Part shown: positions 2,893 through 32,996 of the stretch, piece after piece
Layout of the letters: the number at the start of each line of letters is the position of its first letter
Position numbering within the stretch: the stretch's first letter is position 1
The notes under the pieces: model-generated
Database searches by the model: none
What the model was told of the DNA's origin: nothing
Seen by the model: the letters and a program-made list of their open reading frames with translations, nothing else
Translations under genes and position numbers: made by a program
From: Ectothiorhodospiraceae bacterium WFHF3C12
GTDB lineage: Bacteria; Pseudomonadota; Gammaproteobacteria; Nitrococcales; Nitrococcaceae
Direction: 5' to 3'
Length of the DNA stretch: 44,001 nt
NCBI GenBank assembly: GCA_013519935.1
Contig: JACDUA010000036.1
Location: 1-44,001, forward strand

Positions 2893-3128
2893 CTCCTCGC
2901 CCCCCTGGGCCGATCGTGAATTCGGCCTCGCGTTTATTCTGTAATCGTCTTACGCCCCGGAATCAGGCAGTGCGTTCAAACACGCACATTTCTATTCTGC
3001 GCAGCGGTACACCCCAAAAACAAGGCACTGTGCCTCACTGCTGGCCCGCTCCGAGGGGTGCGTCGCGCCGGCGAACGGCACGCTCCGCTGCCCGCCGCGC
3101 GGCGCCCCGCCGGTACTGGCCCGCGCGG

Positions 3129-4643
3129 TCAGCTCAGAAACAGGCTGTACGCGGGATTGTCGGTTTCATCCCGGAACGGATAACCGAGCTTGTCCAGAAA
3201 GGCCTTGAAACGCTGGCGTTGGCCCGCGGGCACCTGGACACCCACCAGAACCCGGCCATAGGCCGCACCGTGATTGCGGTAGTGGAACATGCTGATGTTG
3301 AACCGCCTGCCCAACTGGCGGAGGAAGTTCATCAGGGCACCCGGGCGCTCGGGAAACTCGAAGTGATAGAGCACCTCGTCGGCCACGCTCGGCGCGTGGC
3401 CGCCGACCATGTGCCGGACGTGCACCTTGGCCATTTCGTTGTCGGTGAGATCCAGCACCGGGTAATCGCGCTCGCGCAGCGCCCGGACCAGCGCCTCCTT
3501 CTCCTCCAGGCCATCGTTCAGCTGGATGCCGGCGAAGACATGGGCCTCGTTGGGATCCGAATAGCGGTAGTTGAACTCGGTGATGGAACGTTTGCCGATG
3601 GTCTCGCAGAACGCCCGGAAGCTGCCGGGGCGTTCCGGGATCGTCACGGCGAGCACGGCTTCGCGATGTTCGCCAACCTCGGCCCGCTCGGCAACGTGGT
3701 TGAGACGGCTGAAATTCATGTTGGCGCCGCTGTTGATGGCAACCAGGGTCTCGCCGCTGGCCCCCGTGCTCTCCACGTATTTCTTCAGTCCGGCCATGGC
3801 CAGGGCACCGGCAGGCTCCATGACCGAACGCGTGTCGTCGAAAATGTCCTTGATAGCCGCGCAGACCTCGTCGGTGGAGACCAGGATCACGTCGTCGACG
3901 TGCTGCCGGGCCACCCGGAAGGTCTCCTTGCCGATCTGGCGCACCGCCACGCCATCGACGAAGATGCCCACCTCGTCCAGCGTGACGCGCTTGCCGGCCT
4001 GCATGGCCGCGTGCAGGGTGGGGGCGTCCTCCGGTTCGACGCCGATGATCCGGATATCCGGGCGCAGATGCTTGATGTAGACCGCGATGCCCGCGATCAA
4101 GCCGCCGCCGCCGACGGGCACGAAAATCGCGTCGAGCTGACGGGGATGCTGGTGCAGGATCTCCATGCCCACGGTCCCCTGGCCGGCGATGACCTCCGGA
4201 TCGTCATAGGGCGGAATGAACGTCATGCCGCGTTCCCGGACGAGCTTGTCGGCCTGGGCCTTGGCTTCGTCATAGCTGTCGCCGTGCAGGACCACGCGCC
4301 CCCCGAAGTTCCGCACCGCGTTGACCTTGATGGACGGCGTCGTGCGCGGCATCACGATCACGGCCTTGATGCCCAGCACCTTTGCCGACAGCGCCACCCC
4401 CTGGGCATGATTGCCCGCCGACGAGCAGATGACGCCCTTTTCCTGGGCCTCCCGGGGCAGGCTGACGATCTTGTTGTAGGCCCCGCGGATCTTGAAGGAG
4501 AACACGGGCTGGAGGTCCTCGCGTTTCATGAGCACGTTGTTGCCCAGTCGCTTGGACAGATTGACGGCCGGCTCCAGTGGTGTCTGCTTGGCCACGTCGT
4601 AGACGCAGGCGGTGAGGATCTTTTCCAGGTAAGGTCGGGTCAT
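3129..4643 (-). CDS. ilvA: Threonine ammonia-lyase, biosynthetic
   Basis: The 504-aa product is the PLP enzyme converting threonine to 2-oxobutanoate, first committed step of isoleucine synthesis. The PLP lysine is in SFKIRGAYNK (K51), the phosphate-binding tetraglycine loop in PVGGGGLIAG (about 176-185), and the SSAGNHAQG segment near 74-82 matches the family. From about residue 330 two ACT-like regulatory repeats follow (RPGSFRAFCETIG and RPGALMNFLRQLG), so isoleucine inhibition and valine activation as in the long biosynthetic enzyme are expected. Length is close to the 514-aa E. coli enzyme. The gene is divergent from rpiA, a common gammaproteobacterial arrangement. The ATG at 4643 has only a weak ribosome-binding site. 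Confidence 0.96.
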   Translation of the reverse strand: MTRPYLEKILTACVYDVAKQTPLEPAVNLSKRLGNNVLMKREDLQPVFSFKIRGAYNKIVSLPREAQEKGVICSSAGNHAQGVALSAKVLGIKAVIVMPRTTPSIKVNAVRNFGGRVVLHGDSYDEAKAQADKLVRERGMTFIPPYDDPEVIAGQGTVGMEILHQHPRQLDAIFVPVGGGGLIAGIAVYIKHLRPDIRIIGVEPEDAPTLHAAMQAGKRVTLDEVGIFVDGVAVRQIGKETFRVARQHVDDVILVSTDEVCAAIKDIFDDTRSVMEPAGALAMAGLKKYVESTGASGETLVAINSGANMNFSRLNHVAERAEVGEHREAVLAVTIPERPGSFRAFCETIGKRSITEFNYRYSDPNEAHVFAGIQLNDGLEEKEALVRALRERDYPVLDLTDNEMAKVHVRHMVGGHAPSVADEVLYHFEFPERPGALMNFLRQLGRRFNISMFHYRNHGAAYGRVLVGVQVPAGQRQRFKAFLDKLGYPFRDETDNPAYSLFLS

Positions 4644-4921
4644 TCCGGTGGTTTCACTTGATTGGCGGCATCAGGGGCTGCGTGGACCGGAACGGCGCCA
4701 GGCGCGCGGCTCCGGGAACGCCGGGTGGCGCAACCCGAAAGCGGATGGTTTCGAGTCCGGGGCTGCGCGCGACGGCCAGCTTATGCGCCCGAGCAGTGTA
4801 AAAGATCGCCGCCGCGCTGATAAGCGCCGGACGCGCCGGCGTGGCCGGGGCACCGCCGCAGACGGTATGATGGGCTCCGGTCGAATCAGGCCATCCCTCA
4901 CCTCAGCTCAGGAATTCAGCA
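4644..4921. promoter_or_regulatory. Divergent ilvA/rpiA intergenic region
   Basis: These 278 bp separate the two divergent starts and must carry promoters in both directions. The rpiA side ends with CTCAGGAATTCAGCA before the ATG, giving AGGA at a good spacing. I found no clear sigma70 hexamer pair, T-box-like or attenuator structure, and no coding frame I would support. Confidence 0.4.
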
Positions 4922-5584
4922 ATGAGCGCCGACACTCAGAAACAGGCGGCGGCGAAGGCCGCCCTGGCCTACATCGAGCGCGACACCGTCGTGGGCGTGG
5001 GCACCGGCTCGACGGTGAACTTCTTCATCGACGCCCTGGCGGCGATGCGCGACGACATTCGCGGCGCCGTATCGAGCTCGGAGGCCTCCTCGCAACGGCT
5101 GCAGGGCCATGGCATTCCGGTGCTGGCCCTCAACGACGTGGACGCGGTGCCGGTCTACGTGGACGGCGCCGACGAAGCCAACCGCCATCTCCAGCTCATC
5201 AAGGGCGGCGGCGGCGCACTGACCCGGGAGAAGATCGTCGCCGCGGCCAGCGAAAGGTTCATCTGCGTGGTCGATCCCTCCAAACGGGTGGACGTGCTGG
5301 GCCGATTCCCGCTGCCCGTGGAGGTCATCCCCATGGCCCGCAGCTACGTCGCCCGGGAACTGGTCAGGCTCGGCGGTCAGCCCGAGCTGCGCTCCGGGTT
5401 CACCACGGACAACGGCAATATCATCCTGGACGTGCACAACCTGGAAATCCTCGAGCCCATAAAGCTGGAACGCGCCATCAACGATCTGGCGGGCGTGGTC
5501 GCCAACGGACTGTTCGCCATGCGCCCGGCCGACGTGTTGCTGGTGGGCGGCTCCGACGGCGTCGAGACCTTTACCGCGCCCTGA
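4922..5584 (+). CDS. rpiA: Ribose-5-phosphate isomerase A
   Basis: The 220-aa product interconverts ribose-5-phosphate and ribulose-5-phosphate in the pentose-phosphate pathway. Family motifs are complete: phosphate-binding GTGSTVN (27-33), DGADE (81-85), KGGGGAL (94-100) with the catalytic glutamate just after (E103 in TREK), and a C-terminal [15 protein letters not shown]. Length matches the 219-aa E. coli enzyme. The start is supported by AGGA upstream. It is divergent from ilvA; a convergent DUF2905 gene follows. rpe, the partner epimerase, lies elsewhere in this window (19810-20490). Confidence 0.97.
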
Positions 5585-5653
5585 GCGTTCGCGGCCAGGG
5601 GCCGCCCCTACGTCGCGGGTACCCACGCCCGCAGGCGCGCCCCATTGGCCCGG

Positions 5654-5860
5654 CTATTTCCGGAACAGCCACAGCACGAGCGTGATGAGTACGCTGACGA
5701 TGATCGACGTGGTAATCGGGAAATAGAAGGCGAAGTCGTCCCGCTTGATGGCGATATCGCCGGGCAGGCGTCCCAGGCCCAGCTTGCCCAGCCACGGCCA
5801 GGCGATCCCCACGACGAGAATCACCAGGCCGAGGATGATCAGTAGGCGCTGAAAGTCCAT
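5654..5860 (-). CDS. DUF2905 family two-helix membrane protein
   Basis: This 68-aa protein matches the small DUF2905 family: a first transmembrane helix (LLIILGLVILVVGIAW), the central family signature LGRLPGDI, an amphipathic FYFPITTS segment and a second transmembrane helix (IIVSVLITLVLWLF). The function is unknown. The start is supported by GGAGGAGGCT directly upstream of ATG. It sits between rpiA (convergent) and moeA (same strand, 124 bp upstream), with no obvious functional link to either. Confidence 0.85.
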   Translation of the reverse strand: MDFQRLLIILGLVILVVGIAWPWLGKLGLGRLPGDIAIKRDDFAFYFPITTSIIVSVLITLVLWLFRK

Positions 5861-5984
5861 AGCCTCCTCCGGCGCGGGCGTTTCTGGTCCATTTAATGGG
5901 GCCGGATTCCGCCTCCTCCAATCGGCCCGGCCCGCGCATCCCGCGAAACCCGCTCAGCGGCCCGGGTTCGCCGGGAGGTGCTGG

Positions 5985-7199
5985 CTAGAGCGGCAGCCAG
6001 CGAACCGCCGAGCCGGCCGGGTAGGCCTCGGCGGAGGCCGGCAGGCGCAGCAGTGCATTGGCATGGCAGAGGTTGCTCAGCATGTGCGAGGCCTGCCGGC
6101 CGAGCGGCTCCAGCTGGATGCCGCCGTCGCGCCCCGTCCACCAGACGGCACGCAACCAGCTGTCCCGACCGGGGTCGGCCTCGGTCTCCAGGGCAAGCCG
6201 GCCCTGATACAGGTGAGGACCGGGCTCGGCGACCCCTTCGAGCACGTCCAGCAGCCGGCGCAGATAGATCTGCGCGCCGACCGCCACGGCCCCCGGGTTG
6301 CCGGGCAGCCCCAGCAGCACGGGCCCATCCTCGGCGCGGCCGAGGAACAGCGGCTTGCCCGGCTTCTGCCGAACCCGCCAGAAGACCTCCTCGATGCCCA
6401 TCTCCCGGGCGACGGGGATGACCATGTCCTTGTCGCCCACCGAGACGCCCCCCGTGGTCACCACCAGATCGGCCTCGGCGAAGACGTCATCCATGGCCTG
6501 TTCCAGGGCGCCGCGGTCATCCTCGACGTAGGCGAGCTCGACATCGCCATAGCCCCAGTGCTCGAGCAGCGCCATGAGCATCGGGCCGTTGCCGTCGTAG
6601 ATGGCGCCCAGGGGCAGGTCGGCGCCGGCGGGGCTGACCTCGTCGCCGGTCACCAGGACCGCGATGCGCGGTTCGCGGTGGACCGGGACATCGTCCACGC
6701 CGGCAACCGCCAGGGCGCCGATCATGCCGGGGGTTATCCGCCGGCCCGCCGCGGTGAGCTCCGCGCCTGCCGCCAGCTCCTCGCCGCGGCGGCGGACATT
6801 GTTGCCCGTCGTGACCGGGGCGCTCACCACCAACCGGCCATCCTCGACGTATACGTCCTCCTGCTTGACAACGGCGTCCGCGCCGGACGGAACGACGCCG
6901 CCGGTGAAGATGCGCATGCTCGTGCCGTCGGCCAATCGCGGGTACTCGGCCTGGCGGGCGGCCGCTACCTCGCCGCTCAGACCCAGGCGAACGGGCGCGC
7001 CGTCGCTGGCCCCCGAAACCCCCTCCGAGGCCAGTGCGTAGCCGTCCATCGCGCTCTGATCGAAGGGCGGCAGGTCCAGCTGCGCCCGGGCCGGCTCGGC
7101 CAGCACGCGATTCAGGGCGTGGGCCAGGGGCAGACGCTCCGCCGCCAGCGGGGTCAGGCCCTCGGCACACAAGGCCAACGCCTCTTCGATAGTTATCAT
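5985..7199 (-). CDS. moeA: Molybdopterin molybdenumtransferase
   Basis: The 404-aa product inserts molybdate into adenylylated molybdopterin, the last step of Moco synthesis. Sequence markers: N-terminal LPPFDQSAMDGYAL, the MoeA/MogA core with VTGDEVSP and TTGGVSVGDKD, GLPGNPGAVAVG, and a C-terminal beta domain ending in AVRWLPL. ATG 7199 is preceded by GGGAGGTG; an upstream GTG at 7223 is less likely. The gene follows moaA-moaD-moaE on the same strand after a 133-bp gap, which may hold its own promoter or a processing site. moaB lies far away at 34037-34582. Confidence 0.95.
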   Translation of the reverse strand: MITIEEALALCAEGLTPLAAERLPLAHALNRVLAEPARAQLDLPPFDQSAMDGYALASEGVSGASDGAPVRLGLSGEVAAARQAEYPRLADGTSMRIFTGGVVPSGADAVVKQEDVYVEDGRLVVSAPVTTGNNVRRRGEELAAGAELTAAGRRITPGMIGALAVAGVDDVPVHREPRIAVLVTGDEVSPAGADLPLGAIYDGNGPMLMALLEHWGYGDVELAYVEDDRGALEQAMDDVFAEADLVVTTGGVSVGDKDMVIPVAREMGIEEVFWRVRQKPGKPLFLGRAEDGPVLLGLPGNPGAVAVGAQIYLRRLLDVLEGVAEPGPHLYQGRLALETEADPGRDSWLRAVWWTGRDGGIQLEPLGRQASHMLSNLCHANALLRLPASAEAYPAGSAVRWLPL

Positions 7200-7332
7200 G
7201 GGCACCTCCCGGCCTGGCGACACTTGCCTTGGGCCATTCCAAACCGCGAATTCTAAAGGATTGAACCCGGTTCCGGGGCAAAGAACTCAAGGAAGAACAG
7301 GGGTCGGAATCCGTTTACGGGAATGCGGGCGC

Positions 7333-7782
7333 TCAGCGCGTACCCTCGTCACCGTGCTCCCCGCAGGCGGAGAGGGGAATGCCGTCCTGGTAGGCGCTGG
7401 TGCCGTCCGGATAGAAATCGTTCTTCCAGATCGGTACCCGGTGCTTGAGCGTGTCGATGGCGTATTCGGACGCTTTGAAGGCCTCGGCCCGGTGCGGCGA
7501 GCGCACCACGATAGCCACGCTGGACTCGCCGATATCCAGGTCGCCGACACGGTGGACGATACGGCAGACCGGCACGCCGAAACGCTCGCGGACCTCCGCT
7601 TCCAGCTCCCGCAGCACCCGTTCGGCCAGAGGCTTGTAGGCGGTATAGCGCATGCGCGCGACCGCCTGACCGTCGTGATGATCACGAACAACGCCCTCGA
7701 ACACCACCAGGGCGCCGCAGCTCGGCTCGGCGGTCTCGGCGATCAGTGCCGCCACGTCAATCGGCTGATCGGTAATATGCAT
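7333..7782 (-). CDS. moaE: Molybdopterin synthase catalytic subunit
   Basis: The 149-aa large subunit of molybdopterin synthase transfers sulfur from the MoaD thiocarboxylate to precursor Z. Recognisable blocks are GALVVFEGVVRDHHDG, IVHRVGDLDIGESSVAI, the lysine-bearing FKASEYAIDTLKHRVPIWK and the C-terminal NDFYPDG. It is 42 bp downstream of moaD on the same strand, as expected for an operon encoding the two synthase subunits. The start has an AGGGA ribosome-binding site. Confidence 0.96.
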   Translation of the reverse strand: MHITDQPIDVAALIAETAEPSCGALVVFEGVVRDHHDGQAVARMRYTAYKPLAERVLRELEAEVRERFGVPVCRIVHRVGDLDIGESSVAIVVRSPHRAEAFKASEYAIDTLKHRVPIWKNDFYPDGTSAYQDGIPLSACGEHGDEGTR

Positions 7783-22086: not shown

Positions 22087-22589
22087 TGATTCAGACCTCG
22101 GTGGCAGTGTGCGCCGCTGTGGTATCGCGCGACAGGGAGCGTTTAGCGAGGCCTGAAGTACCGGTGGGAAACGCTGGCCACCGGGTGGTTCCGGCGGCAC
22201 TGCGCTCGCCGGGCACAGGGCGGCCATGCCAGGGCGCGCGCGCCTTGCCGGAAAGCCGCGCGGTGATACCGGGATCCGAAAATACTGCCTGACAGGTTCG
22301 CAACTGGGACACCGACTCAACTCTTCTCGCGAAGGGCCCGGGACCGGACCGCGCGGACCGGAGAACAGGACAATAGCAGCGAATTCGGTCCCGTCAAGAG
22401 ACCGGAGCGCGGGTCCACGTCAGGGCAATGGAAAAGCTGCATCTGCCACAGCGCGGCACAGGCACGGTTCGTGGCGAGCCCAAAAAGAGAAGGGCATCCC
22501 TGCCCCATGCAGCGGGAAGTCCGTTTCCCAATTGCCACGCCGAGGTAAAGCCATGCGGGTCGATGACCAGGCGGTCGCCGGCCCCGCCC
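22087..22589. other. 503-bp intergenic region without a supported gene
   Basis: This region lies between the djlA start and the stop of the GGDEF/EAL gene (both minus strand). It should contain the djlA promoter and the 3' end of the luxI operon transcript. Open frames through it have no recognisable features. I saw no strong T-tailed terminator, no tRNA and no c-di-GMP riboswitch signature. Confidence 0.4.
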
Positions 22590-24626
22590 CTATGAAGCCA
22601 ACCGGACTGCCTCCTCTCGAAGGGTCATCCGCGCCATCAAGTCCGTGAGCGCCAAAGGCCGTGCGAAATGGAATCCCTGGGCAATCGCGCCGGCCTGCTG
22701 GGCGAGATAGTCCACCTGTGCCTGGGTCTCGACGCCCTCAGCGACCACGTCGAGTCCCAGGTGAGCCGCCATCTGGCAGACCGCGTTGACGATAGCCGTG
22801 TCCTCGCGGCACTGGCCGAGCCCCCGGGTGAAGGACTTGTCGATCTTCAGACAGTGGACCGGGAAGCGCTTGAGGTAGGCCAGCGCCGAGTAGCCGGTAC
22901 CGAAGTCGTCCACCGCCACCCGCAGGCCGAGCGCCCCGAGCCTGCTGAGCACACTGTCGCTGCCCGCCATGGGGCTCATGAACAGCGACTCCGTCAGCTC
23001 CAGCTCCAGCGCGCCGGATTCTATGCCGGCTCCCGCAAGGAGGCTCTCCAGCCGGTCCAGGAATCGCGGCTCCTCAAGCTGCCGGGGCGAGAGATTGACG
23101 GATACCCGCAGGCCATGGAAGCCGCCGCCGCGCAGCGTACCCAGGTCCTCGCAGGCCCGCGCCAGCACCCACTCGCCAACCGGCACTATCAGGCTGCTCT
23201 CTTCAAGCACCGGGATGAACTCCGCCGGTGGGATGAGCCCCCGCTCCGGGTGATTCCAGCGCAGCAACGCCTCCAGGCCCACCACCTCGCCCGTGGCGGC
23301 CACCACCTGTGGCTGGTAGAGCAACTGGAACTCCTCGCGCCCGAGTGCGTGACGCAATTCGGTGGTCATCCACAGATGTCCGGGGTCACGCGCCTCCTCG
23401 GGCGCTCCCGAATACACGACGTAGGCATCACGACCCCGGTGCCGCGCATCACTCAGAGCGCGTTCGGCCCGGCAGACCGGATCCGAATCGCCCGTACCGG
23501 TGCTCGTGCTCGCCATGCCAAGACAGGCCGTGACACAGATCTCCCGATCCGAGAGCTCGATGGGCTCGGCTACACAGTCCAGGAGCCGACGCGCCAGCTC
23601 ATCGCAGCCGGGAGGGTCAACGGCGCCCAGCAGCAGGGCGAATACGTCGCCGGAGAACCGCGCCACGACATCCGTATCCCGCACGGCGCCGCAAAGCCGC
23701 TCTGCCATGGTGCGCAGCACCTGATCGCCGACGGCGTTGCCGAAGGCGGCGTTGACTTCGCGGAATGCGTCCAGGTTCAGGAGCGCTACTGTGGGCGCGC
23801 GGGCACCCTCGTTCTGCCAGGACTCCAGCATCCAGGCGAGCTCGGCCTGAAAGGTCCTGCGATTGCGCAAGCCCGTGAGCTGATCGCAGCGGGTCAGGAA
23901 ATCCTCGCGGGCCGCTCGCTGACGCTCCATCCCCGTATCCCGCGGACTGATCAGGCACAGACCGCCGCCGCCCGCGCCGTCGGGCAATGGTGCCAGCCGC
24001 CACTCGACGGGCGCATCCGTGGGATCCTGCCAGCGGCTCGGAGCCTCGATGGCGGACTGACCCACCGCGAGGGCCCGGCGTACGGCGGAGCGGGCCGTAC
24101 GCTCGCCACGCGGCGGCACGATCACCGCGTCGATGGTCAGGCCCGCCAGCGCCTCGCGGTTGACGCCGAGAAAACGTGCGGCGGCCGGATTGGCCTGCAA
24201 CACCCGCCCTTCAGGATCGATGACCAGCATGGGCTCGAAGGCCTGATCGAAAAGCGCGCGGCTCACATCCATCGTCTGATCGCCGGTCCCGCCGCCGGTG
24301 GCCGGACCGGTCCACTGGGCGATCAACACCACCATGACGTCCTCGCCCCCCTCGCACCGGCTCAGGGCCAGGGTCGCGGTACCGCCGTCCGGCAGGCCGA
24401 CATCAAGCAGGCTGCGCGCGACGCGATCCGCGCGCAGCCCCGACAATGCCGCGTTAAATCGCCGGGCGTCCTCACGGGACAGAAAATCGGCAAGCCGGCT
24501 TCCCGGCAATTGCGCGCCACGGCGCAGCGCCCTGTCCCAGGCGGCGTCGGCATGAGCGATGCGGCCGTCGGCGTCGACGGTCATCGTCGAGGCCCGGGAC
24601 ATGGGCAGCGGGGTCACATTGCTCAC
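22590..24626 (-). CDS. PAS-GGDEF-EAL protein, probable c-di-GMP phosphodiesterase
   Basis: The 678-aa protein has an N-terminal PAS-like region, a clear PAS domain (about 123-200: FDQAFEPMLVIDPEGRVLQA), a GGDEF domain (about 245-410) and an EAL domain (about 425-675). The cyclase signature is degenerate, RFSGDVF instead of RxGGDEF, while the inhibitory RxxD (RDTD) remains five residues upstream. The EAL domain keeps its catalytic set: GLEALLRW, VNLSPRQL, LELELTES, AVDDFGTGYS, LKIDKSF and EGVET. It is therefore predicted to degrade c-di-GMP, with the GGDEF as a sensor. A GTG start overlaps the preceding stop (GTGA), coupling it to luxI through the small middle gene. Confidence 0.9.
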   Translation of the reverse strand: MSNVTPLPMSRASTMTVDADGRIAHADAAWDRALRRGAQLPGSRLADFLSREDARRFNAALSGLRADRVARSLLDVGLPDGGTATLALSRCEGGEDVMVVLIAQWTGPATGGGTGDQTMDVSRALFDQAFEPMLVIDPEGRVLQANPAAARFLGVNREALAGLTIDAVIVPPRGERTARSAVRRALAVGQSAIEAPSRWQDPTDAPVEWRLAPLPDGAGGGGLCLISPRDTGMERQRAAREDFLTRCDQLTGLRNRRTFQAELAWMLESWQNEGARAPTVALLNLDAFREVNAAFGNAVGDQVLRTMAERLCGAVRDTDVVARFSGDVFALLLGAVDPPGCDELARRLLDCVAEPIELSDREICVTACLGMASTSTGTGDSDPVCRAERALSDARHRGRDAYVVYSGAPEEARDPGHLWMTTELRHALGREEFQLLYQPQVVAATGEVVGLEALLRWNHPERGLIPPAEFIPVLEESSLIVPVGEWVLARACEDLGTLRGGGFHGLRVSVNLSPRQLEEPRFLDRLESLLAGAGIESGALELELTESLFMSPMAGSDSVLSRLGALGLRVAVDDFGTGYSALAYLKRFPVHCLKIDKSFTRGLGQCREDTAIVNAVCQMAAHLGLDVVAEGVETQAQVDYLAQQAGAIAQGFHFARPLALTDLMARMTLREEAVRLAS

Positions 24627-24994
24627 GCCATGCTCCCGCGCCGCCGCGGCACGTGGTATTCGAGCACCCAGGGAGACTCCCCCTCCTGCACCAGCCCGCC
24701 GGCACCGGCCCGCTGCGTCTCGTGTTCATCCGAGTCGGCCGCGCTCTCGCGCCGGGACCAGTCCAGGAAAGTGAAGCTGGGCAGCGGCGGCGGCACGCAC
24801 AGTCGGACCTCGCGGGCCAGCGACGGCGCGGCGTTCACCTCCGCCAGTACCCAGTCGAAATTGACTCCCGAGTGAACCAGCCGCAGCGCCTCGGACTCGA
24901 CGCCGCAGTGCACGACACTGCCCGAGCCTGCCATCACGAGGCTCTGGGCCAGATGGCCGGTTTCGGGAGAGGAACCGACGAGCAACAATCTCAT
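24623..24994 (-). CDS. Small pseudo-receiver-like protein
   Basis: No family is certain. The 123-aa protein starts with a receiver-like pattern: strand RLLLVGSS (acidic pair replaced by Ser), helix, strand SVVHCG, then EALRLVHSGVNFDWVLAEV, where the position of the phospho-acceptor Asp appears to be Glu. After about residue 75 the match ends and the tail is unlike receivers. Its ATG overlaps the luxI stop (ATGA) and its TGA overlaps the GTG of the GGDEF/EAL gene, so it is translated between the two. A role linking AHL synthesis and c-di-GMP turnover is inference. Confidence 0.6.
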   Translation of the reverse strand: MRLLLVGSSPETGHLAQSLVMAGSGSVVHCGVESEALRLVHSGVNFDWVLAEVNAAPSLAREVRLCVPPPLPSFTFLDWSRRESAADSDEHETQRAGAGGLVQEGESPWVLEYHVPRRRGSMA

Positions 24995-25620
24995 GCCACT
25001 TGCCTGGCGGCTTCCACCGCCCGCTTGCTGTCGAAGAGGGCCGCACGGAGCTCTTCGCCTATGGGAATGTGGACGGCGACGGACAGCACCCGACCGACGC
25101 GGCGCGCCTTGCGATCGCCGAAGCGCGTCATGGGCAACCCGATCTGACGCAGCAGGCGCTCCATGGCCACGCTGGCCACGGTCACGTACTCGCTGATGCC
25201 ATTGTCGACACCGAACAGATAGCCGGCGCGCAGCATCTGCAGCGTCAGCGCCGAGGAGGTGGCCTGGGCCTTCTGGTCATGCCCGGAAGGGGGCTGGACG
25301 GCAAACCGGCTGAGCTCCCAGACGTCCGCTCGCCTCGGTGCGGCCTCGCCGGCCGTGAGCTCCGGGAAGGTGTCCGTTAGCATGTAGGGGCCCGTGCTGG
25401 GCAGGGCGCGCCAGCATGCCGCGATTCGGCCATCGGCGGCCCGGGCCATGATGTAGACGGGATCCAGATCGTCGAAGTGATCCCGCTCCTCGCCGTCGCG
25501 CCCCTGTACGTCCCAGCCCAGGCGCTCCTTGAACACCTCGTAACGGAAGCGGAACATGCGACCCAGGGTCTCGGGGCTGAAGGCGCACTCAGACGCCCGC
25601 CCAATCAGTATTTCGTTCAT
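24991..25620 (-). CDS. luxI: Acyl-homoserine-lactone synthase (LuxI family)
   Basis: The 209-aa product makes an AHL autoinducer from SAM and an acyl donor. The conserved LuxI residues are present in register: FRFRYEVFKERLGW (R26, F30, W36), ERDHFDDLDP (D47, D50), CWRALPSTGPYML (R71), F85, and WELSRFAV (E102, R105). The acyl chain specificity cannot be read from sequence. The ATG has a G-rich upstream (GGGGGCAGGGC). It is first in a translationally coupled trio with a pseudo-receiver-like gene and a GGDEF/EAL gene. Its only LuxR candidate in the window lies 6.6 kb upstream on the same strand. A lux-box-like dyad lies 67 bp upstream. Confidence 0.93.
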   Translation of the reverse strand: MNEILIGRASECAFSPETLGRMFRFRYEVFKERLGWDVQGRDGEERDHFDDLDPVYIMARAADGRIAACWRALPSTGPYMLTDTFPELTAGEAAPRRADVWELSRFAVQPPSGHDQKAQATSSALTLQMLRAGYLFGVDNGISEYVTVASVAMERLLRQIGLPMTRFGDRKARRVGRVLSVAVHIPIGEELRAALFDSKRAVEAARQVA

Positions 25621-25658: not shown

Positions 25659-25706
25659 ATTAACGGCGAAAGGACGGTCCCGAGGAAACTGTCAGGATTG
25701 ACAGGA
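25659..25706 (-). promoter_or_regulatory. Lux-box-like dyad and -10 of luxI
   Basis: Positions 25687-25706 (AACTGTCAGGATTGACAGGA) contain CTGTCA-ggat-TGACAG, fitting the CTG-N10-CAG lux-box pattern. On the minus strand a -10-like GTTAAT lies at 25664-25659, which would place the dyad centre about 44 bp upstream of transcription start, the usual activator position. Caution: GGATTGACAGGAT is also part of common intergenic repeat text. Confidence 0.45.
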
Positions 25707-25805: not shown

Positions 25806-28052
25806 TCAGAAGTCGTACTTGAGCCCCGCGACAAAGGTTCGGGGCTTACCCGGCCGCGCGCCGTATGGCCGCCGAGAGATCATGTATTCCTTGTCGAACA
25901 CGTTCTCCACGGTCAGGTAGGTCGTGAATTGGCGGTCGATGCGATAACGCCCCGCCAGGTCGACCACGGTATACGCATCGACCGTCGCACCGGCCAGTGG
26001 GCCGTCGTCGTCGCCATCATCGGCTTCACCATCCCCGGCCTGCTCCAGCTGCTCACCCACGTAATGAGCGCTGGCCGTCACGTCCCAGTCGGCCGTGGCG
26101 AGCCCCGCCCGCGCCGTGGCCTGATGCCGGGGCATGTAGGGCAGGCGGTCCCCCGCCTCCACCTCGCCCCATAACGCGAAACTGGACTCGAAACTGGTCT
26201 GGAACTCGGTCTCGGTGTAGGTGTAGCTCAGGTGCAGAGGCACCCGATAGCGCTCCGTCAACCGGACCTCATGGGCCATCAGCGCCTCGATGCCGTAGAC
26301 GTCCACCTCGCCCCCGTTGAACGTCTGGCCCCGGGCGTCGGGACAGCCGCTGGAGATGGTGCAGGTCCCCTTCAGGTTGCTGTAGTCGTTATAGAAACCG
26401 ATGAGCTCGGCCCGGCTGGAATCATCCAGATAGCGGGCGCCTGCTTCGTAGTTCACGCTCTCTTCCGGTTCCACGTCGTCCGACTCGCCGGGCCCGGTAG
26501 GCACAAACCCCTTGTGAACACCCGCCAGCACGCCCCAGGACGGGGCCACCTGGTAGAACACGCCGGCACCGGGCAGCACGGCAGAATCGCTGTTGCTGCG
26601 CCGTGTGCCGGTCAGGTCGTCCTCCGAGGTGTAATCCACCTGCTCCAGACGAACGCCGGCGTTGACGGTCCACCGACGGTAGCGCATCTCGTCCAGCAGA
26701 TACGCGGAAAACGCATCCGCCGACTCCCGGTTCAGCGTGGTCTGGCGGGTATCGCCGCCGTCCGGGACCATGCGGCCATCGCGCATGAGGTAACCGTCTT
26801 CGGTGTGATCGCGGCGCACCTGGTCCTGATGGAAACGCAGGCCCAGCGATACGTGATGGTCGCTCCACCCCCAACGCGGGAACCACTCCAGCACCGACTG
26901 CACGCCCTGGGAGTAATACTCGCGGTCGTTGGTGCCCACCAGCAGCGTCTCCTGGCTGATCTGGGAGTCCCGCTCGCCGCGCAGCACTTCCATGTAGCTG
27001 CGGTTCAGCCCGGCGTCGGGATTGCTGAGGATCTCCAGCAGACTGCGATCCGTATCGAAGCCGTTGAGCTTGGCCCAGGCACGCTCGAAGTCGTGCCGGT
27101 AGATGTTGGTACGGAGGGTGAGCGCCGGCGTGAACTCGACGAAATGCCGCAGCTGAACCTGGGTGTGCTCCCAGTCCATCTCGTCTTTCCGGGTACCGGC
27201 GTAGCGACGGTAAGGCGTGTCGTCGAAGTCGTCGTCGGTAAGGCCGGTGTAAGTCTCGTTGGAGGTCTCGTCCGCGTAGCCCAGCTTCAGCTCCACCTCC
27301 TGGTAAAGCGCGGCCTCCATGCCGGAGTTCCATCGGGTCTTGACCATGAGGTTGTTCTTGTCGAAGCCCGTGTCTCCCCCGCCGTCCAGATCCTTGAAGC
27401 CGCGCGTCTGCGTGTGAAGGCCTTCAATGAGCCAGCCCAGCTGATCGGTGCTGTCGCCATAATGGGCGTGCAGCTTCCGGTAGGCGTCGGTGCCAAGCGC
27501 GGCGTCCACGCCCACCTCGGTCTCGAACGGTACCCGCCGGGTTATCAGATTGAGCGCGCCGCCGACCGTGGCCGGTCCGTGGGCCACCGCAGCCGGCCCC
27601 TTGACCACTTCCACCTCCACCATGCGCGAGACCATGGGGAAGTAATAGGCCGCTGGCGCGGCGTAAGGAGCCGGACCGATGAGGACCTGATCCTCCATGA
27701 GCGTGATCTTCTGGCTTCGCTCGGTGGTGGTACCGCGCAGCCCGATGTTCGGCCGCAGGCCGTAACCGTCCTCGCCGCGGATGTACACGCCCGGGACCTC
27801 GTTCAGCACCCGGTGGATATCGTCGTACTCGTAGCGCTCCAGGCTCTCTTCGTCGACGCTGTGAGCGGACCCCGTGGCGCCCAGCAGCTCGCCGGGGTCC
27901 TCGCCGATCACCGAGACGGCGTCAAGCTGCAATGTCCCGGAATCGCCCTCCTGAGCCTGGACGCCACCGGCGGCCAGCGCCAGGCCGAGCAACCAGACCG
28001 GACCGGGCCGGCCTCCAGGACGCCACGTCACACCGGGCTTGGTCTCGAACAT
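25806..28052 (-). CDS. TonB-dependent receptor, FecA-like
   Basis: The 748-aa outer-membrane receptor has a signal peptide ending GGVQAQ, a TonB-box-like LQLDAVSVIGE, a plug domain (RVLNEVPGVYIRGEDGYGLR, VEVVKGPAAVAHGPATVGGA) and a 22-strand barrel that ends with VENVFDKEYM and the terminal Phe (LKYDF). Plug features resemble the FecA ferric-citrate group. ATG 28052 has AAGGAGGA upstream. It follows the DUF4856 lipoprotein on the same strand by 98 bp and is probably Fur-regulated with it. Ligand not determinable; an iron chelate is likely. Confidence 0.9.
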   Translation of the reverse strand: MFETKPGVTWRPGGRPGPVWLLGLALAAGGVQAQEGDSGTLQLDAVSVIGEDPGELLGATGSAHSVDEESLERYEYDDIHRVLNEVPGVYIRGEDGYGLRPNIGLRGTTTERSQKITLMEDQVLIGPAPYAAPAAYYFPMVSRMVEVEVVKGPAAVAHGPATVGGALNLITRRVPFETEVGVDAALGTDAYRKLHAHYGDSTDQLGWLIEGLHTQTRGFKDLDGGGDTGFDKNNLMVKTRWNSGMEAALYQEVELKLGYADETSNETYTGLTDDDFDDTPYRRYAGTRKDEMDWEHTQVQLRHFVEFTPALTLRTNIYRHDFERAWAKLNGFDTDRSLLEILSNPDAGLNRSYMEVLRGERDSQISQETLLVGTNDREYYSQGVQSVLEWFPRWGWSDHHVSLGLRFHQDQVRRDHTEDGYLMRDGRMVPDGGDTRQTTLNRESADAFSAYLLDEMRYRRWTVNAGVRLEQVDYTSEDDLTGTRRSNSDSAVLPGAGVFYQVAPSWGVLAGVHKGFVPTGPGESDDVEPEESVNYEAGARYLDDSSRAELIGFYNDYSNLKGTCTISSGCPDARGQTFNGGEVDVYGIEALMAHEVRLTERYRVPLHLSYTYTETEFQTSFESSFALWGEVEAGDRLPYMPRHQATARAGLATADWDVTASAHYVGEQLEQAGDGEADDGDDDGPLAGATVDAYTVVDLAGRYRIDRQFTTYLTVENVFDKEYMISRRPYGARPGKPRTFVAGLKYDF

Positions 28053-28150
28053 CCCCTGACAATCCTCCTTCCGGACATGGGAAGGGGCCGGATCAGCGAT
28101 CCAGCCCCTCACTCGGCTCAGCCGGTCAGCCCGACCGGGAGCGACTGGGG

Positions 28151-29584
28151 CTACCAGTCGGCGACGTCACTGCCGGCGAAACCGTACGCATTCTCCAGAA
28201 TGTCCCGGGCTTCGAGGAGATCGGCCCGGTAGTCACTGAACCCCGTCTCGCCCGGCAGTACCGGCGCCTCTCCCATCAGGTCATGGAGGTCGCTGTACTG
28301 GGTGTCGGTCAGGGTCATGCGGGGGTTGAACTGCAGCCCCAGCGCGAAGGCCTTCATTTCGCTCCAGTGCGCGGCCAGGTCACCGAAAGTGCCGGCTCCG
28401 GGACTGGTGCTCCAGGCGTCCATATCCGCCAGGGTGGAGTTGATGTAGTGGACTACGTTGGCAGCGAGCACCTTCTCCCAGTTCTCGACGATGATGTCGC
28501 GCTGGGCCTGCAGATCGGACATCTCCTCGCTGGTCAGTTCGCCGCCGGCGTTGGAGATAATGGCCCTGCCGCGCAGGAACGCGTTGAAGATGTCCTCGCT
28601 GAACGTGGTGCCGGTCTGACTGCTGCGGTCCCGCTTCGCGGCGTAGCCTGCCAGGTCGAAGATGTACTCCGATTGCAGGTCAATGAAGCCGTTGCCATCG
28701 CTATCGCGGTAGGGCTGGCTGGCCACGTCGTCGTCGGTGTAGGCGTTGTAATCCCGCGCGGCGCCGAAGTAGCCGAAGCCTTCGTCCCACTGGTGCTCCA
28801 GTTCCGTGAACGGGCTCGCGCCACTGTCGGCGGCGCTTACGTTATCCGTCATCAGCCCCTTGCCGTCGACGTCGTCGTCAAGGTAGTCATCGGCGGCCTG
28901 GGAAAAGGCCACCGCGCCCAGCAGAAATTTCTGTACCAGCTGGCCGAGATGCAGACCATCCTCGGTAAGATAGTGCTCCAGATTGAACGTGGTCCCGTCG
29001 ACCGTGGCCTGACGCAGGCTCCCGCTTGCCTCGGTGGCGACATTGTCGCCGATCGTATCGAACCAGCCACGGACCAGGGCTTCCGGAGAGGCGGCGCTCC
29101 AGCCGACAAAATCACCCGCATCCCAGTCCACGTGGTCGGTCACGTCGTCATTGCCGGCGATCTTGCCCGTGAGGTTCTTGTTCGACGAAATGTCGCCGTA
29201 CGTGTCCTGCACGGTGGGCGGCGTGGTGGTCAGTGCCAGCTCGTTCCCCGCCAGGGTGTCGATGCCGCCGTCGTAATGGCTCTCGAGGATGGCCACCACC
29301 TCGGCCTGCGTGTCGACCTCGCTCGGCGTGGTGTCGATGCGATCGCCGAGGCCGTTGTCGATGAGGCTTCGCAGGTCGGCGATCAGCACCTGACGCGCCA
29401 CCTGCCCGGGGTAGGCCACACTGCTGACGCTGCTGAACCGGCTCGGAAAGGCATAGGTCTCGGGCACATCCAGCGTACTGCCGGTCGGCGCGTTGTCATT
29501 GTCGTCATCGTTGTCGCCGCCACAACCCGTCAGCCCGAGTGATGCCAACAGGGCGAGGGTGAGCGCTATCCTGCTGTTCTTCAT
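28151..29584 (-). CDS. DUF4856 lipoprotein
   Basis: The 477-aa protein has a lipoprotein signal (ALLASLGLTGCGG, Cys at about 21) and the DUF4856 features YAFPSRFSSVSSVAYPGQVA near the N-terminus and HQWDEGFGYFGAARDY in the middle. It is strikingly acidic. DUF4856 proteins occur beside imelysins and TonB receptors and are thought to act in iron handling at the cell surface; the activity is unproven. A Fur-box-like site lies 87 bp upstream, inside the 3' end of the preceding gene, so this gene may start its own Fur-controlled transcript with the receptor. Confidence 0.82.
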   Translation of the reverse strand: MKNSRIALTLALLASLGLTGCGGDNDDDNDNAPTGSTLDVPETYAFPSRFSSVSSVAYPGQVARQVLIADLRSLIDNGLGDRIDTTPSEVDTQAEVVAILESHYDGGIDTLAGNELALTTTPPTVQDTYGDISSNKNLTGKIAGNDDVTDHVDWDAGDFVGWSAASPEALVRGWFDTIGDNVATEASGSLRQATVDGTTFNLEHYLTEDGLHLGQLVQKFLLGAVAFSQAADDYLDDDVDGKGLMTDNVSAADSGASPFTELEHQWDEGFGYFGAARDYNAYTDDDVASQPYRDSDGNGFIDLQSEYIFDLAGYAAKRDRSSQTGTTFSEDIFNAFLRGRAIISNAGGELTSEEMSDLQAQRDIIVENWEKVLAANVVHYINSTLADMDAWSTSPGAGTFGDLAAHWSEMKAFALGLQFNPRMTLTDTQYSDLHDLMGEAPVLPGETGFSDYRADLLEARDILENAYGFAGSDVADW

Positions 29585-29656
29585 GAGTACTTTTCCTTTC
29601 TTCCCGGTTACGCCTTTGCGTGGAGGCCCGTTTGCCTCCCGCCCGACTTCCGGACG

Positions 29657-30745
29657 TTACACAGAATGCGAATGCGAGTCAATTGCATTCGTACGAACTC
29701 TTGAAGACGCATTAATACCTGAATGCTTCCCCGGGCGCGGCGGACGGCGGTCACGGATCCCCCCGCGTTCCCGACCGGATCCCGCGGCGACGGCCTCCTT
29801 CAGCGGCAGCCAGTAGGCCTGCCAGAGATTGCCGTAGACGGGCTCCGCGGCGCGTCGGCCGAGCCCGAACCCGTGCCGGCGCTGACCGTGCGCCACGGTC
29901 AACGTGCCGAACAGCCAGTCCCAGACCGCGAGGAAAGAGCCGAAGTTGCGGTCGAAGTGCTCGCGCCGGTTGCTGTGGTGGATCTGGTGCTGCGCCGGGC
30001 TGATGATCAGCCGCTCCAGCCAGCGCCCGTAGCTCAGACGCACATGGGAATGCCGCAGGTTCGCCCCTGCCAGGTTGAAGACGAAGGTAAACACGTTCGC
30101 GCCGGCGATATCCCAGGCGCCCAGCCGCATGCCGAAGCCGTAGAAGAACAGCCCCACTACAAGGCCCTGGGTGAGCGTCATGCGCAGGGTATAGAGCACG
30201 CTTTCGAGGGGATGGATCCGGTAGACCGTCACCGGCGTAAGCACCTCCGCGGAGTGATGCAGCTTGTGCAGCGCCCACAGCACGGGGATGCGGTGCAGCA
30301 GCCAGTGCAGGCCGTAGCGCGTGAAGTCGTCCGCCACGAACAGTGTCAGGGTGAAGGCCGCGGCCACGGCCCAACCCGGCCAGGACGGCTCGGCCGGGCC
30401 GAGCCGCTCCCCCAGCACCTCGGAGACGGCGATGGCCACGGCCACCATGGACACCAGGCCGGCCGCGTTCAGCGACGCCGATATCACCGGGTTGACCAGC
30501 AGGACCTGGTAATCCAGCCGAGCCGAGCGATGCCACCAGATCCGCGGATTGAGTAGGTACCGGCACAGCCCCCCCAGCGACCGCGCGCCGCGTGGTCCGG
30601 CGAGCCAGTAGGCGGCGGCGGCCATGGCCGCCGCGCCCAGCAGGTACCAGCCGAAAATGCGCTTGTCCGGATCGAGCGGAAAACGCAGCGCCGCCAGCAG
30701 ATCGCCGGTGGGCCATTGCCCGAGCCAGGTGCCCAGTGTCTCCAT
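29657..30745 (-). CDS. Sterol desaturase / fatty-acid hydroxylase family membrane enzyme
   Basis: The 362-aa membrane protein carries the three histidine clusters of the non-heme diiron hydroxylases: HWLLHR (HxxxH), HKLHHS (HxxHH) and HQIHHS (HxxHH), with four to five transmembrane segments. Substrate unknown. ATG 30745 has TGAGG five bases upstream. It sits between the imelysin and DUF4856 genes, 36 bp after the former. The last roughly 25 residues (NAIDSHSHSV end) are encoded by DNA that also holds the DUF4856 promoter and Fur-like site, so the tail may be non-conserved. Confidence 0.85.
   Translation of the reverse strand: METLGTWLGQWPTGDLLAALRFPLDPDKRIFGWYLLGAAAMAAAAYWLAGPRGARSLGGLCRYLLNPRIWWHRSARLDYQVLLVNPVISASLNAAGLVSMVAVAIAVSEVLGERLGPAEPSWPGWAVAAAFTLTLFVADDFTRYGLHWLLHRIPVLWALHKLHHSAEVLTPVTVYRIHPLESVLYTLRMTLTQGLVVGLFFYGFGMRLGAWDIAGANVFTFVFNLAGANLRHSHVRLSYGRWLERLIISPAQHQIHHSNRREHFDRNFGSFLAVWDWLFGTLTVAHGQRRHGFGLGRRAAEPVYGNLWQAYWLPLKEAVAAGSGRERGGIRDRRPPRPGKHSGINASSRVRTNAIDSHSHSV
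29671..29689. promoter_or_regulatory. Fur-box-like site upstream of the DUF4856 gene
   Basis: AATGCGAGTCAATTGCATT is a 19-bp dyad (AATGC...GCATT) matching about 13 of 18 positions of a Fur consensus AATGAGAATnATTCTCATT. It is 87 bp upstream of the DUF4856 start and lies inside the 3' end of the sterol-desaturase-type gene. Confidence 0.5.
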
Positions 30746-30781
30746 CACGCCTCACCCCGCTACACCGGTCTGATCACGGCA

Positions 30782-32074
30782 TCAGTCGCCGTCGCCGGCG
30801 GCCGAATCAGGGATCGACAGCCCGAGCACCTGCAGAAAGTCGTTCTTGAGCTCGTCCGTGACAGTCTTCGTTGCCGTGTGGGCGCTCTCCACCAAGGGCC
30901 GCTCGGACTGCAGGGTCTGCGTCAGCGTGTCCCGCATCGTGGCATCCGAAACCGAGGCCACGGCCGCGTCGATATTATTGGCCAGCATGGAGGAGACGTT
31001 GTCCCCGCCCGCCGAGCTCAGGTAGTCGTCGAAACCGGTCGCCGGCGTACCACCCGGCTCATTGCCCAGGTACATCAGCTGCAGGGCGAGCAGATTGTTG
31101 CGAATATTGGCCTTGCTGTTGTCGCTCCAGGGCGACTCGACGGCCTCCAGGCATACCTCGCCCGGAGACGCCGCCCCGCAGGTGCTCGCCTTCAGCCGAA
31201 GCGGCTCGGCCAGCTTGATGTCCTTGGTCTGTTTCTCGACGTAGAACAGCCCGTCGGAGACGGCGTTGACCGCCTCCTCGACGCTGTCGTAACGGCTGGC
31301 GCCGGAACCGGGGCTGGTCAGCTCGGCCAGGAAGTCGCCCGAGGTACCATCCCAGCTCTCAACCAGCGTCCGGGCCTGGTTGGCCACGTCCGCGGCCGCC
31401 TGTTCGGCGAAGACGCAGCGCGCCTCGCGTCTTTCGGGGTCACTGAGCAGCGTCCAGTATCCCTCGTCCCCGGGGGTTGTTTCGAAGCCGGAGACCGAAG
31501 AGGGACACTGCGCGGTCGTCGGATCGCTGAACAGGGCATACTCCAGCGCGTCCATACCCCGCCTCGTCAGGGTGCGCGAACCGATGTCATAAGTCGCACT
31601 GGTGTTGGCGGCCTCGTGCGCGAGGATCACGTCCTGATCGACGGCGCAGGCATTGGTGGAGGGCCACGAGTAGATCGTGTCGCGCAGCTCGCTGGAATTC
31701 GCCACCAGGGGCCCCACCTGCATCACGTCGGCGCGCTGCCAGGCGGCCATTGCGTCGCGCCAGGCTTGCCGGGCATTGTCCCGCTCGGCGGTCGCCGGAT
31801 CGCTGGTATCCAGAGCGGTGCAGTAGTCGCTGACGGCGGAAACCATCGCCTCGCTCTCGGCGCGGAAGGTCTCGTAGGTCGGCAACATCACGTTGTTCGC
31901 CAGGTTCTCAAGCATGCCCTGGCAGTCGAAGTCGTCGCAGCTGCTGCCACCACCGGTCCCGCCGCCGCCACCACCGCCACCTCCGCCGCCGCAGGCGGCG
32001 AGCAGCCCGATGGCCGCCGTCAGACCCAGTACCGTACCGACCCTGCTACTGCGTGCGATCGCCAAAGTGTCCAT
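30782..32074 (-). CDS. Imelysin-family (M75-like) lipoprotein
   Basis: The 430-aa protein has a lipoprotein signal with lipobox LLAAC (Cys 28) followed by an unusually long glycine run as a flexible tether, then an imelysin domain with the segment RGMDALEYALF where most imelysins have a GxHxxE motif; here the His position is Asp. Imelysins of this type lie in iron-uptake operons and are Fur-regulated; the peptidase annotation is historic and activity is doubtful. Several cysteine pairs suggest disulfides. First gene of the imelysin-desaturase-DUF4856-TonB receptor set; a Fur-like site is 102 bp upstream. Confidence 0.87.
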   Translation of the reverse strand: MDTLAIARSSRVGTVLGLTAAIGLLAACGGGGGGGGGGGTGGGSSCDDFDCQGMLENLANNVMLPTYETFRAESEAMVSAVSDYCTALDTSDPATAERDNARQAWRDAMAAWQRADVMQVGPLVANSSELRDTIYSWPSTNACAVDQDVILAHEAANTSATYDIGSRTLTRRGMDALEYALFSDPTTAQCPSSVSGFETTPGDEGYWTLLSDPERREARCVFAEQAAADVANQARTLVESWDGTSGDFLAELTSPGSGASRYDSVEEAVNAVSDGLFYVEKQTKDIKLAEPLRLKASTCGAASPGEVCLEAVESPWSDNSKANIRNNLLALQLMYLGNEPGGTPATGFDDYLSSAGGDNVSSMLANNIDAAVASVSDATMRDTLTQTLQSERPLVESAHTATKTVTDELKNDFLQVLGLSIPDSAAGDGD

Positions 32075-32249: not shown

Positions 32250-32996
32250 TCAGTTGAACTGCGGGACGATCAGGCCCTGGGCAACGGCCCGGGCGATGGC
32301 CTGCTGGCGGCTGGTGACGTTGAGCTTGTTTGCCACGTTCTGGAGATGAAAGTTCACGGTGCGCTCGGATATGCCGAGTATGTGGGCGGTCTCCCAGGAC
32401 GTCTTCCCCTCCGCCGCCCAGAGCAGGCACTCGCGCTCACGCTCGGTGAGCTCTTCTCTCTTGAACGGCAGCTTGCCCGCGCTGACCAGCCGCGAGGCCG
32501 CCTCGTGCACGTAGGCGGAGAGCAGGTAGAGATCGGGCAGGGCATGGTGGATCTGGCCGCGCACGGCGGGCATGGACTGCTCGCTGCTGAGACTGAGCAT
32601 GGCGACCTCCCCCCGCCCGCCATGCACCGGCATGCTGACGCCCGAGCGAAGCCCGAAAGTCCGGGCCTCGCCCATGAACCGGCGACTGAAGTCGGTGGCG
32701 CGTTCGCCGTTCTCCAGCTCGTCCCACACCAGCGGACGGACGCTGTTGACGCAGTGGGTCACCGTGGGATCGGTGGCGATGTAATGCCGCTCCACGTAAC
32801 GCTCGCGCCATTCGTCGGGATAGCCGCTGACAATGAGCACGAAAGGCTTGACCAGGGACGTGGGAAAACGCGCGCCGTAGATGAAGTAGTCGAAGCCGTT
32901 GGACTCGCAGATGTCACGGCAGAGCGCATGCAGGTCCTCGACGCTGGACGCCTGCAGGCTGCTCTCGATGATCTCTGGCAAGGTCAGGTCGTCCAT
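32250..32996 (-). CDS. LuxR-family AHL-responsive regulator
   Basis: The 248-aa protein has an N-terminal autoinducer-binding domain and a C-terminal LuxR HTH. The AHL-pocket residues of TraR/LuxR are all found in register: W63, Y67, D76, P77, W91 and a glycine in FGLRSG. The HTH (LTERERECLLWAAEGKTSWE, then TAHILGISERTVNFHLQNVA) has the conserved Glu, Leu and Gly. It is therefore the likely receptor for the LuxI product, although the genes are 6.6 kb apart. A GGAACgaagGTTCC dyad at 32998-33011 lies directly before the ATG and may be an autoregulatory site or part of the leader. Confidence 0.92.
   Translation of the reverse strand: MDDLTLPEIIESSLQASSVEDLHALCRDICESNGFDYFIYGARFPTSLVKPFVLIVSGYPDEWRERYVERHYIATDPTVTHCVNSVRPLVWDELENGERATDFSRRFMGEARTFGLRSGVSMPVHGGRGEVAMLSLSSEQSMPAVRGQIHHALPDLYLLSAYVHEAASRLVSAGKLPFKREELTERERECLLWAAEGKTSWETAHILGISERTVNFHLQNVANKLNVTSRQQAIARAVAQGLIVPQFN

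Follow-up and report, generated by a model that had tools for sequence, protein, structure and literature searches.

The window analysed here, a stretch of 44,001 nucleotides of Ectothiorhodospiraceae bacterium WFHF3C12 (assembly GCA_013519935.1, contig JACDUA010000036.1, positions 1 to 44,001 of the forward strand), carries on its minus strand three genes in tandem: a luxI-type gene for an acyl-homoserine lactone (AHL) synthase, a small middle gene, and a gene for a PAS-GGDEF-EAL protein predicted to break down cyclic di-GMP (c-di-GMP). A sequence-only reading had described the three genes as joined by ATGA and GTGA overlaps, and both the coordinates and the overlaps were read again in the sequence. 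The operon, the box before luxI and the luxR-type gene farther upstream are as follows.

24991-25620, minus strand: luxI-type AHL synthase gene (209 amino acids; Pfam PF00765)
24991-24994, minus strand: ATGA, in which the stop of luxI overlaps the start of the middle gene, read in the sequence
24623-24994, minus strand: middle gene, a LuxI-linked pseudo-receiver protein (123 amino acids; family hidden Markov model (HMM), receiver profile and fold matches)
24623-24626, minus strand: GTGA, in which the stop of the middle gene overlaps the start of the EAL gene, read in the sequence
22590-24626, minus strand: PAS-GGDEF(degenerate)-EAL protein, predicted c-di-GMP phosphodiesterase (678 amino acids; Pfam domains and motifs)
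25689-25704, minus strand: lux box CTGTCAATCCTGACAG, whose edge closer to the luxI ATG lies at -69 from it
32250-32996, minus strand: luxR-type receptor gene (PF03472 at 1.6e-40, GerE at 3.4e-21)

By its domain, the luxI product is an AHL synthase of the LuxI family. It matches PF00765 at 3e-36 (125 bits, against a cut-off of 24), and residues R24, R26, F30, W36, D47, D50, R71, E102 and R105 are invariant in an alignment with five relatives; we take these to include the known LuxI catalytic residues. The 678-residue protein matches EAL (2.1e-70), GGDEF (1.4e-28) and PAS_4 (3.9e-18) in Pfam. Its EAL motifs are intact (EALLRW, DDFGTG and EGVET), and at the GGDEF site it has SGDVF in place of the GG[DE]EF active-site motif. 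The cyclase half is therefore probably dead, and the protein is probably a phosphodiesterase. The build PAS-GGDEF-EAL is also that of RpfR, the partner of the synthase RpfF, which to our knowledge is unrelated to LuxI.

The lux box CTGTCAATCCTGACAG, a putative LuxR site, is the sole match in the window (0.05 expected). The strict box occurs at two places in the 4.6-Mb genome of the window, 25689-25704 being one of them. The pattern CTGTMANNNNTKACAG is found twice in this genome, once in Arhodomonas and once in Nitrococcus mobilis, in the latter two cases 5′ of luxI. Boxes of the form CTGT-N8-ACAG stand 5′ of luxI in 32 of 37 middle-gene loci (the window included, and many of them near relatives; 0.02 expected), in all 3 loci of the Nitrococcus group (three genomes of one genus, N. 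mobilis among them; 0 expected) and in 9 of 41 other LuxI loci, the expectations being computed on order-1 Markov randomised sequence. The second strict box of the genome (L143, G000:C80:718-733) lies directly 5′ of an open reading frame of 230 amino acids that looks hemerythrin-like by eye. The luxR gene, 6.6 kb from luxI, is the single PF03472 match found in the window's genome, and its product is 53-59% identical to the LuxR encoded before luxI in four relatives (L027, L029-L031). An orphan luxI with the PAS protein as its sole receptor was rejected, given this luxR and flanks that match the luxR neighbourhood of Arhodomonas. The sequence-only reading had been silent on luxR, the lux box and an insertion; the first two are present, and the insertion, described below, is probable.

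A search for PF00765 in 95 genomes returned six, the window's included, with a LuxI above 90 bits. In the other five, luxI is immediately preceded on its own strand by luxR, about 0.1-0.6 kb away. All three genes of the operon are kept in Arhodomonas (G003), and a GGDEF-EAL gene follows luxI in Arhodomonas and in the three Nitrococcus-group genomes. A metagenome-assembled genome (MAG) of Halorhodospira (G048) keeps luxI and the middle gene, with no EAL match on its 5.7-kb contig. In the Nitrococcus group luxI and the EAL gene are open and the middle gene is broken (L051, L055 and L056, ~6618-6960): it gives no family match (best 0.073, from the tail alone), its three copies differ by single-base indels, two of them contain stops, and the third has an open 128-residue frame that does not match the middle family. 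The conserved tail in this group was not counted as evidence that the middle protein is under selection, as the stretch also lies within the open EAL frame. The trio of the sequence-only reading thus recurs, whole or as a remnant, in Arhodomonas, the Nitrococcus group and the Halorhodospira MAG.

Beyond these relatives, genome contigs were scanned with a LuxI alignment, the best 80 of 262 LuxI matches being used, and an HMM of the middle gene was built from 18 sequences, 17 from these LuxI loci and one from the window. The middle gene was found at E<1e-5 in 36 of the 80 LuxI loci, 19 of which lie outside the set used to build the HMM. In 33 of the 36 it has the same four-nucleotide overlap with the luxI stop, starting with ATG in 30 and with GTG in 3, and this shared register argues that the overlap in the window is not due to chance. 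Nor is the middle gene itself a chance frame, because an HMM built without the window protein still detects it at 3.1e-8. The E-value is 4.5e-6 when Arhodomonas is left out as well, 3.6e-5 when Halorhodospira and Natronospiraceae are also removed, and 0.025, which is not significant, once Desulfuromonadales is removed too. Among the records that carry the middle gene are two MAGs of Desulfuromonadales and entries from Arhodomonas, Halorhodospira, Thiogranum, Gallionellaceae and Nitrosospira/Nitrosovibrio, and the family is present in Nitrosospira multiformis and Arhodomonas aquaeolei. A middle gene unique to this genome was rejected, as family matches occur in many other loci. A LuxI tree of 81 rows accounts for the middle-gene label with 5 changes, compared with 27 in shuffles, and places the window with Arhodomonas and Nitrococcus (100/85). 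The steadiest partner of luxI is the middle gene rather than the EAL gene. Loci L044, L047, L048, L050 and L053 belong to a LuxI clade with luxR before luxI and a second LuxR-like gene directly after it, without a middle gene.

The middle-gene HMM was also searched against 369 genomes of the class, at most the best 10 candidates per genome being scored, so that match counts are lower bounds; at least 54 matches were found in 47 genomes. At least seven matches (in seven genomes) reach the C-terminus, at position 149 or beyond, and among the matches listed all of these are at luxI, directly after it in all but G132; those of the window, G003 and G133 were known already. The other 47 matches end at or before position 140, most by about position 90, in frames of at least 226 amino acids, and read as ordinary receivers; no luxI match lies within about 3 kb of the 14 of these 47 that were examined (L124-L137). 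The C-terminus-reaching match in G132 is a fusion with a luxI remnant: at this locus (L141, 4075-6402) one open frame consists of the start of luxI and the end of the middle gene, with an EAL gene directly after it, and the luxR frame, of about 136 amino acids, matches in two pieces. This locus is probably one in which the signal half has decayed and the output has been kept.

What follows the middle gene is more variable. Besides the window, a same-strand EAL or GGDEF gene was found within 1.5 kb downstream in 12 of 34 middle-gene loci with room for one, and the corresponding figure for LuxI loci without a middle gene is 5 of 41 (p = 0.026), the Nitrococcus-group loci making up three of the 5; L043 and L059, which are too short after luxI, are excluded from the counts, as are L079, L104 and L109 among the other LuxI loci. 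Without the 17-row Nitrosospira/Nitrosovibrio clade and the three Nitrococcus-group loci, a post hoc grouping, the EAL or GGDEF gene is next in 12 of 17 against 2 of 38 (p = 1e-6). L080 (Nitrosovibrio), which falls outside the 17-row clade on the LuxI tree and has an EAL gene, was retained in this subset. The builds found in the 10 downstream proteins scanned are PAS-GGDEF-EAL, REC-GGDEF-EAL, REC-EAL, GGDEF-EAL, EAL alone, MASE1-GGDEF-EAL and REC-GAF-GGDEF-EAL, a PAS match being absent from 8 of the 10 (the exceptions are L039 and L055). The junction between the middle gene and the EAL gene varies among relatives from overlap to gap, whereas that between luxI and the middle gene keeps one register in nearly all loci. 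In a betaproteobacterial MAG (L064, ~7107-7622) the gene after the middle gene resembles, by eye, that of a CheW-type chemotaxis protein and may be another output.

The window middle protein has no Pfam or NCBIfam match at E<=1, and the middle family as a whole could be placed in none of the curated families. A family profile of 32 members, compared with the PDB, retrieves receiver domains, the best being FleR (1.2e-7 over positions 2-88), and a receiver-like alpha/beta fold was found that covers residues 1-85 only. The structure model of the window protein is confident over residues 1-80 (block means at least 80) and poor over 88-112. Its Foldseek matches are weak (best E 0.013) and mostly to receivers, the first being an uncharacterised Rossmann-fold protein and the second the CikA pseudo-receiver. 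The model of the L085 protein is poorer (predicted local distance difference test score 64.5), with FleR as the best Foldseek match (7e-4) and a flavodoxin as the second. The label "pseudo-receiver-like" given by the sequence-only reading therefore holds up, by the profile match to FleR together with these fold matches, and the first ~85 residues resemble a degenerate receiver. Flavodoxin_5 is the commonest sub-threshold Pfam match (12 of 32 members, best 0.0012), and in view of these matches and the flavodoxin fold match the protein could, less probably, be flavodoxin-like. At the phospho-acceptor site the window protein has Glu and at the acidic pair Gly-Ser, so that it lacks the phosphorylation site of a receiver. 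Of the 32 members, 21 have Asp as the acceptor (20 of the betaproteobacterial branch and Arhodomonas), and the rest have Glu, Asn, Ala, His or Gln. In the acidic pair, Gly takes the place of the first acid in 27 of 32, and the second position holds Glu or Asp in 20 of 32. These columns were assigned from the FleR alignment and from what we take to be the usual receiver anatomy. The best conserved part of the family is C-terminal, with two Cys regions and [FL]EY, of which the window protein retains only [FL]EY. For the middle gene, all 12 pairs of other loci compared (the pairs overlap) give a ratio of nonsynonymous to synonymous substitution rates (dN/dS) below 1, from 0.07 to 0.43, and in each of the 11 pairs that also yield a value for luxI the middle gene has the higher ratio.

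One pair of loci, L039 and L046, differs sharply between its two halves. Protein identity is 56% for LuxI and 66% for the neighbouring LuxR, against 83% for the middle protein and 90% for the EAL protein. In 150-base steps, DNA identity between L039 (~2600-4390) and L046 (~3100-6640) is 0.51-0.67 over luxR-luxI and 0.82-0.94 over the middle and EAL genes, with aligned flanks at 77-95%. Since the jump lies at the junction of luxI and the middle gene, the middle gene goes with the output half. A second luxR is present in L046. The luxI dN/dS value of this pair was discarded, as synonymous sites were saturated, and it had prompted the test for a swap.

The box, the gene order, the overlaps and the domain families with intact EAL motifs, all read directly in the DNA, together with the order kept in relatives, the boxes before luxI in most middle-gene loci, a middle-gene dN/dS below 1 and the L039/L046 break that leaves the middle gene with the output, make it fairly probable that the locus is a LuxR-autoinduced operon that raises the AHL synthase and the predicted c-di-GMP phosphodiesterase together. 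At high cell density, AHL-bound LuxR would act at the lux box. The direction of regulation that we infer is positive: AHL synthase would rise, and the pseudo-receiver and the phosphodiesterase would rise with it on the same transcript, with coupled translation. If the EAL enzyme is active as predicted, c-di-GMP would fall and cells would leave the attached state. In this clade the middle protein would not work as receivers normally do, by phosphorylation, and would more probably act through protein contact, as an adaptor or a regulator of the operon's output half. The fixed stoichiometry claimed in the sequence-only reading does not follow, as overlapping codons do not set protein ratios. That reading had also named an internal promoter as evidence that would separate the genes. 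The promoter scan found no sigma-70-like site inside the operon on its strand; the scan carries little weight, because it found none 5′ of luxI either.

Several observations weigh against the operon reading. The same scan gave no consensus promoter at the lux box, and the lux-box count ignores weaker LuxR sites. The middle gene is, to judge from its broken copies, dispensable in the Nitrococcus group, because the family match is lost there while luxI and the EAL gene remain. There is no EAL or GGDEF gene within 1.5 kb in 22 of the 34 middle-gene loci with room for one, and these include all 17 of one Nitrosospira/Nitrosovibrio clade; a view of the EAL gene as the core partner of luxI is thus not supported. 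In a crude motif search, EAL, DDFGTG and EGVE occur together in just 7 of 19 downstream proteins of other loci (the first motif being EGL in one of the 7), and the Arhodomonas protein has ETL in place of the EAL motif; some downstream proteins may therefore not be enzymes. Finally, the swap is known from one pair, and both of its members are metagenome assemblies.

A wider proposal, which we put forward only tentatively, is that the middle gene represents a new family of phosphorylation-independent receivers found only as the coupled partner of an AHL synthase. The protein would serve as a quorum-sensing adaptor to a pluggable output, here c-di-GMP breakdown, and the locus would be modular, so that recombination could exchange the luxR-luxI half and leave the pseudo-receiver and the output enzyme in place.

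The 22 loci without an EAL or GGDEF gene could also mean that the middle protein is mainly a regulator of the AHL circuit, with a CinS- or RsaM-like role on LuxR or another regulator, and that the EAL protein is a separate output co-transcribed in some lineages. There is precedent in CinS, a small protein from cinIS that inactivates the repressor PraR (PMC4149787, available text). The EAL or GGDEF gene is nevertheless enriched beside the middle gene, both overall and in the post hoc subset, and the break in the swapped pair parts luxI from the middle gene, so we regard this explanation as rather unlikely. RsaM itself was rejected as the identity of the middle gene, since the 11 families that members of the 32-protein set match at E<=1 do not include PF16245.

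Direct contact is another alternative: as in RpfF/RpfR, the PAS-GGDEF-EAL protein or the middle protein might bind AHL or LuxI, giving a second receptor and feedback on synthesis besides LuxR. The plan resembles that of RpfF, which makes the diffusible signal factor, and RpfR, the receptor of that signal; according to the available text (PMC6361424), RpfF is bound and inhibited by the N-terminal domain of RpfR. The 678-residue protein of the window has PAS domains, and luxI is tightly coupled with the middle gene. A luxR is present in the genome, however, a PAS match is missing from 8 of the 10 downstream EAL proteins scanned, and the L039/L046 LuxI proteins are far more diverged than their middle and EAL proteins, which argues against co-evolved contact or shared signal specificity. 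We consider direct contact improbable. Mere inheritance of gene order, with signal synthesis and c-di-GMP not functionally coupled, is likewise improbable: the neighbourhood from the trp cluster to moaB is collinear with Arhodomonas, so that some order is simply inherited, but the overlap of luxI and the middle gene is seen again in records of Gammaproteobacteria, Betaproteobacteria and Desulfuromonadales, and EAL proteins of differing build (PAS, REC, MASE1, GAF) at the same place suggest repeated recruitment or domain exchange.

Several known systems resemble the locus in part; their published descriptions are cited here from the available text of each source. In Nitrospira NspR1/NspI, LuxR induces luxI and an adjacent GGDEF/EAL gene via a shared lux box, as seen in reporter tests. 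There, as here, a GGDEF/EAL gene stands beside luxI with a lux box, but the genes are divergent, not one operon, and that text mentions no middle gene (PMC8553950). Burkholderia RpfF/RpfR likewise pairs an autoinducer synthase with a c-di-GMP-altering receptor, whose PAS domain binds the signal. It differs in that the signal is a cis-2 fatty acid, RpfR itself is the receptor, and the text names no pseudo-receiver gene or luxR (PMC6361424); the synthase in the window belongs to the LuxI family, not to the RpfF type. The Rhizobium cinI-cinS pair shares co-transcription of a small regulatory protein gene with the AHL synthase gene (PMC4149787). CinS, compared by description only, has 67 residues (PMC3356288) and is an anti-repressor, with no EAL gene named. 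The RsaM family (PF16245) is also a small protein encoded beside luxI/luxR, with a five-stranded antiparallel sheet round two helices (PMC10710839), and its profile is unmatched by the middle proteins. In Burkholderia cenocepacia, BCAM1871 is co-transcribed after the AHL synthase gene cepI and affects AHL activity and motility. It is an unlikely identity for the middle gene, set apart by size and description alone, as it has 254 residues, a 52-bp gap, a distribution reported to be limited to Burkholderia and weak similarity to hydroxymethylglutaryl-coenzyme A reductase (PMC3356288). The candidate identities of the middle gene also include orf3, a gene beside afeI in Acidithiobacillus (PMC10972369).

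LuxR control of a GGDEF/EAL gene adjoining luxI is thus known already from the Nitrospira report (PMC8553950), as are genes co-transcribed after luxI (cinS, BCAM1871). We met no description of a luxI-EAL operon or of this middle gene in the open-licence literature on luxI neighbourhoods, quorum sensing in the host taxa and the known analogues, subscription papers being mostly outside this scope. The novelty of coupling luxI and an EAL gene, called unusual in the sequence-only reading, is narrower than that reading had it, given the divergent Nitrospira arrangement. The middle gene probably represents an undescribed protein family, and its conserved coupling to luxI with a variable c-di-GMP output, together with the luxR-luxI exchange between L039 and L046, looks new.

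As a rule, the link between quorum sensing and c-di-GMP passes through layers of transcription. Here one putatively LuxR-controlled transcript appears to encode the synthase, a conserved protein without a name and a predicted phosphodiesterase, and the locus looks like a direct crowd-to-biofilm switch retained by relatives. The presence of the middle family in named strains such as N. multiformis and A. aquaeolei makes its role open to experiment. If the luxR-luxI half is exchangeable, strains could change their signal language and keep the response, and cassette exchange in more pairs would make this a case of an AHL system whose signal diversifies while its output stays fixed.

Two further features flank the operon.

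25806-32074, minus strand: block separating luxI from luxR, with genes for a TonB receptor, a DUF4856 protein, a fatty-acid hydroxylase and an imelysin (by Pfam)
22491-22506, minus strand: terminator-like hairpin 3′ of the EAL gene (pattern scan; 2 found against 1.5 expected, within chance)

The block has no match in the stretches compared of the same four relatives, and its GC content does not stand out. Both of its flanks are collinear with Arhodomonas (L027), where luxR ends about 0.1 kb before luxI. On the simplest reading of these alignments, the block is probably an insertion into the quorum-sensing locus in the lineage of the window. Elsewhere in the same genome, a second, weak PF00765 match of 31 bits (L021, G000:C2:20420-20707) may be an exosortase-type acyltransferase.

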